Below, piece after piece: positions 3,545 through 17,416 of a DNA stretch of 41,342 bases. The notes under the pieces were generated by a model, which saw nothing but the letters and a program-made list of their open reading frames with translations, had not been told where the DNA came from and made no database searches. Every line of letters begins with the position of its first letter. Position 1 is the first letter of the stretch. A program made the position numbers and the translations under genes. Origin of the DNA: an uncultured Pelagibacteraceae bacterium (lineage in GTDB: Bacteria; Pseudomonadota; Alphaproteobacteria; Pelagibacterales; AG-422-B15); the NCBI GenBank assembly GCA_902524795.1, contig CABZEU010000012.1:1-41342 (forward strand), read 5' to 3'.

Positions 3545-4753
3545 TTATCTTTCTTGAAAAGATTGACCCAAAGATCCCATGAATGGTGAAAGTAAGTAAT
3601 TTGCAAGTGTTCTTTCTCCAATTTGTATACTTGCTGTTACTTTTACTCCGGGAACTAAATAATAAGTTTTTTCCTTACTTTCAAAATAGTTCTGTTCAAG
3701 TTCCACAAAGATATTGTAAAATACAATTCTATTGTCATTTTCGTCCTGTTCAGTATCAGGACTAATTCGATCAACAATCCCTTCAATCTGACCAAAATTA
3801 ACTGCATCTGAAGAAGAAAGTTTCACAACTGCATTTTGACCTGGTTTTACAAATCCTATGTCACTTTCCTGAAGTCTTGCTTCAACAATCAAATTATCTT
3901 TAGTTGGAACTATATCAAGGATTGCCTCACCAGGCCTTATGACGCCTCCAATTGTTACAAAAAATAAGTTTTTTACTACCCCGTCAACAGGTGCAACTAT
4001 TACAGTTCGACTTAAATTATCTTTAAGTGCCTTAATTGTTTCATTGAGCTCTGATATTTCCCTTTGTGCAACTTGTCTTTGATTTCTTGCATCCTCAATA
4101 AACTCTTTTGTAATATTCTCTTTTTCCTCAATCGCAGCTTCTAGTGTTCCCTTGGCTGCATTTAATTCCTTCAAAAGATTAAGATGAGCGAATTCAGTAA
4201 TGATGCCCTCTTCTAATAATTTTTGGCTCATGTCTGTTTGCTTAATTAAAATATCTATTGCGGTTTGATGCTGAATGATCGATGCCGTTACTTCTTTAAT
4301 ATCACCTTCTATTTTGTTTTTTCTACTTATAAATAGCTCAATAGATTTATTTACCAATTCTTCCCTATTATTTGCCAGATCGTCAGGAAAAACTGGCACA
4401 TCAAAATCATTAATTTCTGCCTCTAATCTAATAGATTGTATTACTTTCGCGTCTATTTGGACTTGGGCTTCGTCAACATCAACTTCACTTGCGGTGGCAG
4501 CAAGTATTACCAAGGGGTCACCCTCTTTTACTATATCGCTTTCTTTAACAAGTATTTGATCAATGATACCCCCTTCCAAATGTTGAATTGTTTTTACATC
4601 TCCAGCGGGAATAACTTGTCCTTCAGCGTTGCTAATAATATCGATATTAAATAGAAACATCCAAAGCATTGCTATAAATGCAAAAGAGGAGAATACTATG
4701 AAAAAAATTTGTGTATTTTTTCTATGCTTTTCAGGTAAAAGTGGGATTGTCAT
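3545..4753 (-). CDS. Type I secretion membrane fusion protein, HlyD family
   Basis: Periplasmic adaptor (402 residues) linking the inner-membrane ABC exporter to the TolC-like channel. It has a short cytoplasmic N-terminus, a single membrane anchor at about residues 15-35, and a biotinyl-lipoyl half-motif (QVIPAGDVKTIQHLEGGII). A long coiled-coil hairpin region follows at roughly 80-260, then the second lipoyl half (VIVAPVDGVVKNLFFVTIGG), and a beta-barrel region that ends with the SFQER tail common in HlyD/PrtE adaptors. The ATG overlaps the ABC transporter stop as ATGA. It is the last gene of the operon: TolC-like, giant substrate, ABC, HlyD. Confidence 0.95.
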   Translation of the reverse strand: MTIPLLPEKHRKNTQIFFIVFSSFAFIAMLWMFLFNIDIISNAEGQVIPAGDVKTIQHLEGGIIDQILVKESDIVKEGDPLVILAATASEVDVDEAQVQIDAKVIQSIRLEAEINDFDVPVFPDDLANNREELVNKSIELFISRKNKIEGDIKEVTASIIQHQTAIDILIKQTDMSQKLLEEGIITEFAHLNLLKELNAAKGTLEAAIEEKENITKEFIEDARNQRQVAQREISELNETIKALKDNLSRTVIVAPVDGVVKNLFFVTIGGVIRPGEAILDIVPTKDNLIVEARLQESDIGFVKPGQNAVVKLSSSDAVNFGQIEGIVDRISPDTEQDENDNRIVFYNIFVELEQNYFESKEKTYYLVPGVKVTASIQIGERTLANYLLSPFMGSLGQSFQER

Positions 4754-6405
4754 TTCTCGCCTTTCAAATCATAAGTCACTTGTGGTGATGGTTTTTTGTC
4801 CAGATCTAGTAGAATATTTGCTTGTTTAATTATGTTTTCATCCTGTGTTGCGACAATAATCGTTTTATTTTCCATCGCCATTTTGCTTATTAAATTATAT
4901 AATGAGGTTCGGCCTCGTTCGTCCAATGACTCACTTGGTTCGTCAAATACTACAACTTGTCCTGACACTATCATAGCTCTAGCAAGTGCAATTCTTTTTC
5001 TAATACCAAAAGGTAAATTTTCACCTCTGTTGGGCAATTGCATTTGTATACCACTTGGATCACTGTTGACAAAATCAATTAAGTCAACTGATTTTAAGAT
5101 TTCATTCATTTTATCTTTTTTAATTTCTGTTAAGCCCAATAAATTGTCTAGAAGTGTTCCATCAATAAACTTTGGTTCTTGAGGTAGGTATATTAAATTT
5201 GATCTCAGCCACTCTAAAGATAGTTGATTTAGTTCTACAGAGTCATAAAAGATCTGTCCTCTATTAAATTCTAAAATTCTTATAATTAACTTAATAAGTG
5301 TTGATTTACCTGAACCATTAGACCCTTTTATGGCAGTAATATCGCCAGGCTTTACAACACAATTTAGGCCTTCAAATACGGGAACTTTAGTGTTTGGATA
5401 TTGAAAGTGTAGATCTTTCATATCAATAATTCCTTTGAAATCTCGTATTTCTGATCCATCTTGTGAATCTTGAGGAATTCTTAAAAATTGATCCAACTCA
5501 CCCAATGAAACTGTTGCCTTATTTATAGGCTCCATATTTTGCACAAGCCTAATTATAGGAGCAATTGCTCTAGAACCTAAAATATTTGCGCCAATAAGGG
5601 CCCCTACTGAAATTTGACCATCAACAGCTAAAACGGCACCCCATGCAATTATTATGATTGTTAGCAATGTCGTAGATGACGCCATAAAAGAAGATAAGAT
5701 ATTTCTTTGCGCTTCTAAGTCTTCTTTTGTATTAATTGTTCTTTCAATAATTGAACTCCAAGCTTTTTTGACAGCATTAATTAAATTAAAATACTTAACA
5801 GTTTCAAAGCGTGAACTTGAGCTATCATGCAATCTAGCTGTGCCATAATTTAGCTGTGTCGAAACATTGCTTAACTTATTAATGCTGTTTCTATAAAAGT
5901 TTAAAATGATAAAGGGGACTAAAATAAATAATGTTGCAATGAGTCCTAACTGATAATTTATTAGAAATAGTGCAATTAGAAAGATTAAAACAAATGGCAC
6001 ATCAATTAAAATTAAGGTTGTTGATGCATTAAATGTATTTTGAACCAGATTAACGTTTCTGGTAACTATATCGGGCCTGAAATTTTTTTGAATTGAATAG
6101 TAACTTGATTTTATAGACACAAGCTTTTTCATAACCCTGTCTGCAAGCAAAGTGTTTTCTGCCTCTATTTCTCGAGTCATACGATGTCTGATGTTGCGAA
6201 AGAAAAATTCAAAAAGGCTTACAATAAGTATACCTACAATCAACGTTACTAATGTTGAGTTGACACCATAAGCTACATATCTTTGTAAAACCTGGATGAC
6301 ATAAATGGGTGTCGCCAGTGCAAGAATGTTTACAAAAAAAGAGGCTATTATTATTTTTGTAAATAAATTTGGGTTACGCTTTAATCTTTTAAAAATTTCA
6401 ATCAT
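4750..6405 (-). CDS. Type I secretion ABC exporter (PrtD/LapB type) with atypical ATPase motifs
   Basis: Inner-membrane exporter of 551 residues: a six-helix membrane domain (about 15-310) followed by a nucleotide-binding domain. It begins directly with the membrane domain, so it lacks the N-terminal C39 peptidase or C39-like domain of HlyB/LapB and has PrtD-like length. Walker A (GSNGSGKST, about 359-367), Q-loop (LPQEP, about 404-408) and Walker B (VVVFDEP, to about 490, with the catalytic Glu at 489) are intact. The signature motif reads LPFGI (464-468) instead of LSGGQ, and the switch His is Gln521 (VATQDEN). Both changes are confirmed in the DNA. The reading frame is otherwise undamaged and the partner genes are present, so it is probably functional but divergent. 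It presumably exports the adjacent 3176-residue protein. Confidence 0.92.
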   Translation of the reverse strand: MIEIFKRLKRNPNLFTKIIIASFFVNILALATPIYVIQVLQRYVAYGVNSTLVTLIVGILIVSLFEFFFRNIRHRMTREIEAENTLLADRVMKKLVSIKSSYYSIQKNFRPDIVTRNVNLVQNTFNASTTLILIDVPFVLIFLIALFLINYQLGLIATLFILVPFIILNFYRNSINKLSNVSTQLNYGTARLHDSSSSRFETVKYFNLINAVKKAWSSIIERTINTKEDLEAQRNILSSFMASSTTLLTIIIIAWGAVLAVDGQISVGALIGANILGSRAIAPIIRLVQNMEPINKATVSLGELDQFLRIPQDSQDGSEIRDFKGIIDMKDLHFQYPNTKVPVFEGLNCVVKPGDITAIKGSNGSGKSTLIKLIIRILEFNRGQIFYDSVELNQLSLEWLRSNLIYLPQEPKFIDGTLLDNLLGLTEIKKDKMNEILKSVDLIDFVNSDPSGIQMQLPNRGENLPFGIRKRIALARAMIVSGQVVVFDEPSESLDERGRTSLYNLISKMAMENKTIIVATQDENIIKQANILLDLDKKPSPQVTYDLKGEK

Positions 6406-16078: not shown

Positions 16079-17416
16079 TTATGATGAAGTATTAAACGTT
16101 CCTTCTTTTTTTGTATTTTCAATCATTGACGGGTCAAGCAAGTTGATCACATCAAGAATTTCATACACAGAAGTTATAAGAGACATACTGTCATCAGAAA
16201 GATCTTTTAATGAGCTTTCTAAAGTTTCCTCAGCAGATAAAACAGCGGCTGCATCAGTTTGGTCAGCGGCTCTTTCTTTTTGCGCAATGGTTAACAATTC
16301 CTGCGCAATCGTTGCTTCATTTTCACTGTAAGATAGCATTGTCCTTGCATTAGAATATTCAATCCAGGCGTCTTTCGCTTTTTTTACAGTATCTCTTTCT
16401 TTAACCGCGAGATCATTAATTGCTCTATCTAATGCAGAACGATCATTTAAATAACCAGGCATTTCCATATAAAATCCTGATATAGGAAATTCAACGGTTA
16501 CCTTCATTTGCTCCTCATGATGAGTACCCCCTGTATGAGAAGCATCTTTTTTATCAGAGTACTTTATTTCCCCGTCTATTGATGGACCAAAACCGGCAAG
16601 TGCGACGTTTAAATCGTTTCTTGCAATATCGACATCCATTCTTGATTTCAATAAATCTCTATTGTTAGAGAGTGCTAACTCGACGGTTGCATCCATAGAA
16701 TTTGGAACCATTGCTAACGCCTCAGGACTCAATCGGGGTTTAACAAGACTACTTGCTTCAACTGCATCAATTTTAAAAAGTTTCTCAAAGGTAAATACCG
16801 CAGATTTAAAACTTTTCTCATCAGTAATTACTGTTTTTTGAGCACTTGCTAATTGTCTTTTAGCTTTCAACACATCGGATGCTAAACCAGATCCTACCTG
16901 AACTCTGATCTCTTCTTGACCGGAAGTGGCCCTTGTATTTTCTTCAGCAGCGACTGAAGCCTCAAGTTTTTCTCCAGCTTTAATTAATCCTAGATATGCG
17001 TCTGCAGCCTCTATCAGTAAATCGTTTCTTGCAGTAATAAAGTCCAACTCAGATTTTTCAGACTCAAGTTGTTTGTTTCTGATACCGTTAAGGGTAGCTC
17101 CAGAGTCCATTATTTTTTGCTTCCATGTCCAATCCCACGTTTTAAAATCTAGTTGGGAGTTAGATGCAGCACCATACTTGTCATTTCTTCCTGCCTCATA
17201 TTTTACTGATAAATCTGGAGCATATGCTAGAAGAGCATCTGTTACATCTCTATCTGCCTCCTCTAATTCTTTTTTTGCATTTACAATATCCTCATGGCTA
17301 TCAAGAATTTGATTAACCATATTTGTTAATGTCTGTGCACTGGCATTTACGAAAGTAAATGAAGCAAATATTGTGATTACAAGAAATTTTTTTAAAATTG
17401 AAATGATTAAAGTCAT
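16079..17416 (-). CDS. TolC-family outer membrane efflux/secretion protein
   Basis: A 445-residue outer-membrane channel of the TolC/AprF/PrtF type. A signal peptide ends near residue 27 (FVNASA-Q). The mature part has the two-fold repeat of long helical coiled coils (about 35-110 and 150-215, then 240-290 and 340-420) with short beta-strand segments between them (for example DLSVKYEAG). It is the first gene of the secretion operon, 45 bases before the giant substrate gene, and should form the exit duct with the ABC and HlyD proteins. A 7-bp hairpin covers its Shine-Dalgarno sequence. The HTGGTHHEEQ loop is a local oddity with no assigned role. Confidence 0.93.
   Translation of the reverse strand: MTLIISILKKFLVITIFASFTFVNASAQTLTNMVNQILDSHEDIVNAKKELEEADRDVTDALLAYAPDLSVKYEAGRNDKYGAASNSQLDFKTWDWTWKQKIMDSGATLNGIRNKQLESEKSELDFITARNDLLIEAADAYLGLIKAGEKLEASVAAEENTRATSGQEEIRVQVGSGLASDVLKAKRQLASAQKTVITDEKSFKSAVFTFEKLFKIDAVEASSLVKPRLSPEALAMVPNSMDATVELALSNNRDLLKSRMDVDIARNDLNVALAGFGPSIDGEIKYSDKKDASHTGGTHHEEQMKVTVEFPISGFYMEMPGYLNDRSALDRAINDLAVKERDTVKKAKDAWIEYSNARTMLSYSENEATIAQELLTIAQKERAADQTDAAAVLSAEETLESSLKDLSDDSMSLITSVYEILDVINLLDPSMIENTKKEGTFNTSS

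Follow-up and report, generated by a model that had tools for sequence, protein, structure and literature searches.

The signature serine and the switch (H-loop) histidine are regarded as central to catalysis in ABC proteins. In HlyB, the signature residue Ser607 hydrogen-bonds the gamma-phosphate, H662A has less than 0.1% of the ATPase activity, and a simulated S607G substitution raises the energy barriers (PMC6222333). In NBS2 of human MRP1, mutation of the H-loop His abolished transport, except for substitution by Gln or Asn, which were wild-type-like (reviewed in PMC7756269). Natural changes in both signature and switch are present at the degenerate sites of TAP1/TAP2, Pdr5 and CFTR (for example, Gln in TAP1 and LNVEQ in Pdr5), each of which combines one degenerate with one canonical site and where the catalytic Glu is usually lost. 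In TAP1 the switch residue is Gln, but Glu is changed to Asp, the signature of the partner is changed, and the site is non-hydrolysing.

The window analysed here is a 41,342-nucleotide stretch of DNA, contig C12 of a draft SAR11-type genome (1.1 Mb, 80% complete). Genes for a TolC-family protein, a giant protein, an ABC exporter and a HlyD-family adaptor are arranged in this order on the minus strand.

16079 to 17416, minus strand: TolC-family outer membrane protein (Pfam OEP), in the same position in the related loci L228 and L229
6503 to 16033, minus strand: presumed substrate, a repeat protein of 3176 aa that is rich in Ala, Met and Gly and carries four RTX-like nonapeptides near its C-terminus
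4750 to 6405, minus strand: T1SS ABC exporter, a TMD-NBD half transporter of 551 aa (Pfam ABC_membrane and ABC_tran)
3545 to 4753, minus strand: HlyD-family periplasmic adaptor (MFP), overlapping the ABC open reading frame by 4 bases (TIGR01843, above cut-off)

As expected of a T1SS ATPase, the exporter is encoded together with a HlyD-family adaptor and a TolC-family protein and has a giant open reading frame with C-terminal RTX-like repeats as its neighbour. The giant protein contains 29% Ala, about 60 NPEAA-like repeats, and a Met/Gly-rich stretch of 450 residues (42% Met, 20% Gly) followed by a short RTX tail; so Met-rich a presumed secreted giant looks unusual. The whole gene order is also complete in L228 and L229, downstream of genes that match valS and ilvD in length and place (the names are those annotated in the window), and the giant-protein equivalents there are 2958–3058 aa long. 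The other Pelagibacterales contigs examined stop inside the upstream giant gene, and we note that four SAR11 contigs (L035, L036, L039 and L041) end about 1–2 kb upstream of the ABC gene, within the giant repetitive gene. This gene seems to break assemblies, and gene absence in draft genomes should thus be read with care. The adaptor gene adjoins the ABC gene in the Pelagibacterales loci examined.

The motifs of the NBD were assigned by alignment with orthologues and with the genome's own canonical MsbA (L002), which has LSGGQ and His.

5302 to 5325, minus strand: Walker A, GSNGSGKS (residues 361–368), intact
5179 to 5181, minus strand: Q-loop Gln409, intact
5002 to 5016, minus strand: signature motif LPFGI (residues 464–468), where LSGGQ is expected
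4996 to 4998, minus strand: Lys470
4939 to 4944, minus strand: Walker B Asp488 and catalytic Glu489, intact
4921 to 4923, minus strand: D-loop Asp495, intact
4843 to 4845, minus strand: Gln521, at the switch (H-loop) position
4840 to 4842, minus strand: Asp522, adjoining the switch residue

From the canonical Ser2, Gly3 and Gly4 of an LSGGQ-like signature only Gly4 remains in LPFGI, and the switch is Gln rather than His; the canonical Walker A Lys, Q-loop Gln, Walker B Asp, catalytic Glu and D-loop Asp are all present. A preliminary description of this DNA had reported this combination, apart from the D-loop, in an intact gene within a full operon, and both statements are borne out: the alignment gives the same residues, and the 551-aa open reading frame is uninterrupted and has its three partner genes in order. 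In a structure model the NBD is confident (pLDDT about 85–94) and the membrane part is poor. The signature helix spans residues 466–479, so that Pro465 just precedes the first helical residue, and proline is well tolerated at the N-terminal edge of a helix.

Several described T1SS exporters resemble this protein in part. The best NCBIfam match is TIGR03375 (335.5 bits over residues 6–530, against a cut-off of 693), followed by TIGR01842 (270.8 bits, against 510). Three sampled members of the wider clade described below likewise score under both cut-offs, but a low score is not in itself diagnostic of the clade, since outgroup stretches cut to the matched part also fall below the cut-offs; it is the tree and the residues that tell the groups apart. 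The exporter shares with the LapB/LssB type (TIGR03375), besides the family match, a T1SS operon and a large, RTX-tailed, adhesin-like cargo. However, it is without the N-terminal 140 or so residues and has no C39-like domain, and it has LPFGI and Gln where the outgroup members have an LS[G/A/S]G-type signature and His. Length and TMD-NBD layout are those of the PrtD type (TIGR01842), whose structure 5L22 is among the top three chains matched by the model, whereas the signature, positions 470 and 522, and the switch residue differ. HlyB (8DCK and 7SGR) provides the best structural matches and also has a HlyD partner and an RTX cargo, but its Ser607 and His662, which simulation or experiment has shown to matter for catalysis (PMC6222333), are both replaced in the SAR11 exporter.

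The closest named matches are in SAR11-type 'Pelagibacteraceae' genomes, isolates labelled AG- or AH-. A single-protein search returned seven real orthologues together with 73 weak matches (21–28% identity); those whose motifs were read are Atm1/ABCB7-like ABC proteins found mostly through the pattern FETVKYFN, and some of the weak matches were reused as alignment depth for the structure model, and never as T1SS controls. Nothing was found in the viral contigs searched. In a search of 77 whole genomes the ABC gene was present in 27, of which 26 belong to the same genus (including that of the window) and one, with a partial gene, to a sister genus; at the threshold used it was not found in the sister family. 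One internal stop was reported in each of L016, L018, L026 and L028, located at the last codon of the match and consistent with the natural stop codon.

Twenty-three full-length proteins of the genus, with orthologues 44–96% identical to the window protein, were compared. All of them, down to 44% identity, have a signature of the form L[P/A]xGI, with Pro at position 465 in 22 and Ala in one. L464, G467, I468, K470 and R471 are each conserved in 23/23, and with P465 in 22/23 this is more than would be expected by chance, given a mean column identity of 67%. The switch residue 521 is Gln in 12, Asn in eight, and Ala, His and Ser in one each; K367, Q409, D488, E489 and D495 are invariant (23/23). 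Pairwise dN/dS is 0.03–0.09 for the whole gene and 0.05–0.14 for the NBD, in pairs with dS up to about 1.5.

These comparisons bear on two simple explanations for the altered motifs. The first, a sequencing or assembly error in a contig of a draft genome that is 80% complete, is refuted, its probability being next to nil, as the same residues are present independently in G016 (96% identical) and G012 (86%). The second is that the pump is impaired or decaying, with which its patchy distribution within the genus (27 of the 77 genomes searched) would be in keeping. Against this are the purifying selection just described, the presence of the same motif in all orthologues, and the occurrence of the adaptor gene wherever the ABC gene is found among 36 same-genus genomes, the adaptor-only cases lying at contig ends; we regard decay as very improbable. 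The preliminary description had left open a modified cycle, which it linked to slow export of a giant substrate, or an impaired pump, and had proposed that orthologues with normal LSGGQ and His would imply local decay or error. Such orthologues are not what was found, with LSGGQ in none of the 23 proteins and His in one; from the shared change, the low dN/dS and the conserved operon, a modified cycle is favoured and an impaired pump disfavoured. The altered motifs are real and lineage-wide, and the pump is probably functional.

A broader context is provided by profile searches of the class and phylum, in which the scores are bimodal: one group lies above roughly 490 bits, and canonical T1SS ATPases stay under about 400. 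Members of the high-scoring group occur in Alphaproteobacteria, on Azospirillum plasmids and in a second class of the phylum, and a genome often encodes two or three of them; their typical signature is L[S/A/P]xG[I/V/L]R[R/K]R, as against LSGGQRQR. Gly at position 466, the third of the signature, is absent from all 92 readable members (23 from Pelagibacterales and 69 others); 91 of them have Lys or Arg at position 470, where the outgroup T1SS ATPases have Gln (20/20), and 84 have Asp at position 522, where outgroups mostly have Ser or Arg. The switch His is retained in 53 of the 69 non-SAR11 members, the rest having Asn, Ser, Gln, Leu, Arg or Ala. When the motif columns were masked for tree building, a branch with SH-aLRT 100 separated 70 altered-signature rows from 23 canonical ones; this was a quick search with SH-aLRT support only, several long branches and an outgroup picked by profile similarity. 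The window exporter, which has K470, falls in the 70-row clade, within which Pelagibacterales form a clade of their own (SH-aLRT 100). Parsimony inside the clade requires at least seven changes of the switch residue between His and other residues, and at least 12 changes at the second signature position.

The residue pattern of the 92 members and the masked tree indicate that a wider T1SS subfamily inherited the altered signature from its ancestor. As the exporter also scores under the curated cut-offs of the named subfamilies, we describe it as a member of this unnamed group of T1SS ATPases; no description of it was found in the open literature searched, the coverage of which was incomplete. 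By the same comparison SAR11 is the extreme case, adding the changes of Ser to Pro and of His to Gln or Asn, and within the subfamily it is only this combination that is typical of SAR11. Pro is likewise found in Azospirillum oryzae and A. brasilense (LPVGH and LPTGH), but these retain His. The Azospirillum plasmid proteins (such as WP_042444997.1 on pAB510b) belong to the same clade, have LAPGI or LP[VT]GH, and are encoded in ABC-HlyD order with TolC and a giant VCBS-type protein alongside; they differ in retaining the switch His, and the Azospirillum sp. B510 operon has an additional Peripla_BP_6/MscS gene. Because altered versions are common to relatives in Alphaproteobacteria and a second class and are under strong selection, the SAR11 exporter seems to be a long-standing variant that works, and not a broken gene.

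In most loci of the wider clade the adaptor gene follows the ABC gene, with TolC and large repetitive genes nearby. Clade members with the switch His also adjoin giant genes, and thus cargo size alone cannot explain the loss of this residue. Many of these operons contain or adjoin a gene for a protein of about 1040 aa with Peripla_BP_6 and mechanosensitive-channel domains (L170:6903-9971 and G180:C6:266065-269169, and also L273, L274, L275, L276, L277 and L279), of which the SAR11 genomes searched yielded no full-length copy; whether this protein might be a secretion sensor is a question we raise here. Far more degenerate paralogues occur in T1SS operons of the other class (L249, L253, L254, L255, L256 and L270, with neighbourhoods L273–L278). 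These have LSPDL or LAPDL signatures, Arg or Lys for the Q-loop Gln, a switch Asn, loss of the D-loop Asp, or loss of the Walker A glycines (GERKAKSLL). In the L273–L278 stretches the degenerate ABC gene lies between TolC and HlyD genes, and no second ABC gene of the same family was found. Very divergent T1SS-like ABC proteins are also present in 1.4-Mb genomes of family f10 (L131, L137 and L138); their signature is ISKGI or YSKGI, Walker B has DD and not DE, the switch is Asp or Glu, and only a long branch connects them to the clade.

Whether one or both ATP sites are altered depends on the composition of the dimer. A heterodimer, in which the canonical motifs come from a different ABC half transporter, as they do in TAP or TM287/288, would accord with the altered signature and switch, since both changes are characteristic of the degenerate sites of heterodimers (PMC7756269), and some relatives do carry a third PF00664 exporter. 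However, the only PF00664 exporters in G019 (99% complete) are MsbA and the SAR11 protein, G038 (93%) likewise has only MsbA besides, and no ABC half transporter of the same family adjoins the gene in 20 neighbourhoods. In known degenerate subunits the catalytic Glu is usually missing, whereas Glu489 is kept in 23/23 Pelagibacterales proteins. A heterodimer is thus a distinctly improbable arrangement. The simplest reading is a homodimer, and the lack of any second T1SS ATPase in G019 speaks for it; in contrast to TAP1/TAP2, Pdr5 and CFTR, both sites of this presumed homodimer would be altered, with Glu kept.

We favour the interpretation, to which we give a probability of roughly two in three, that this is a functioning T1SS energy module that exports the adjacent giant, Ala-rich, RTX-tailed protein and uses an ATPase of a distinct subfamily. 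A plausible course is that the protein pairs with itself, giving two identical composite sites, in which Walker A Lys367, Gln409, Glu489 and the D-loop would support ATP binding and hydrolysis as usual. The trans contact to the gamma-phosphate, normally made by the LSGGQ Ser, would be provided by the N-terminus of the Pro-capped signature helix together with Gly467, and Gln521 (Asn in other branches) would replace His as a hydrogen-bonding switch, probably with slower hydrolysis than with His. Within the subfamily, K/R470 and D522 may be residues that compensate for these changes, and a K470-D522 salt bridge across the dimer was considered. The two switch residues tolerated in MRP1, Gln and Asn, are those present in 20 of the 23 SAR11 proteins, although hydrogen bonding by Gln or Asn is not universal, since the other three orthologues have Ala, Ser or His. 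By analogy, the effects of H662A and S607G in HlyB would count against a working ATPase, as would the natural His-to-Gln change at the non-hydrolysing site of TAP1, where, unlike here, Glu is not retained.

Export gated by ATP is an unlikely alternative account of the same residues. ATP binding would clamp the NBDs, hydrolysis would be very slow or serve only for reset, and translocation would be driven by membrane potential or by folding of the Ca-binding C-terminus outside the cell. Two gamma-phosphate contacts are lost at both composite sites, and other clade members also lose the signature Gly, the Q-loop Gln, the D-loop Asp or the Walker A glycines while the T1SS operon persists; an intact operon is thus no proof of hydrolysis, as some distant paralogues have lost such residues yet kept theirs. 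The strict conservation of Glu489, Lys367 and Gln409 in all 23 Pelagibacterales proteins is unexpected if hydrolysis is irrelevant. We also offer tentatively, as a possible if doubtful reading, that a widespread T1SS subfamily has abandoned the LSGGQ-Ser/His scheme, either for another trans contact (the helix N-cap with K/R470 and D522) and a Gln/Asn switch, or for a use of ATP mainly as a clamp with another force driving export of giant proteins; SAR11 would be the extreme, a probable homodimer with both sites altered.

Motif-based annotation would label such pumps inactive, and their scores lie below the curated T1SS cut-offs, so that caution is warranted. The subfamily spans SAR11-type ocean bacteria and Azospirillum, and purified domains from the culturable relatives are therefore directly testable. 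A family that has repeatedly replaced the signature Ser and the switch His but not the catalytic Glu, that probably forms homodimers and that is under strong purifying selection, constitutes a natural experiment on which of these contacts are needed.
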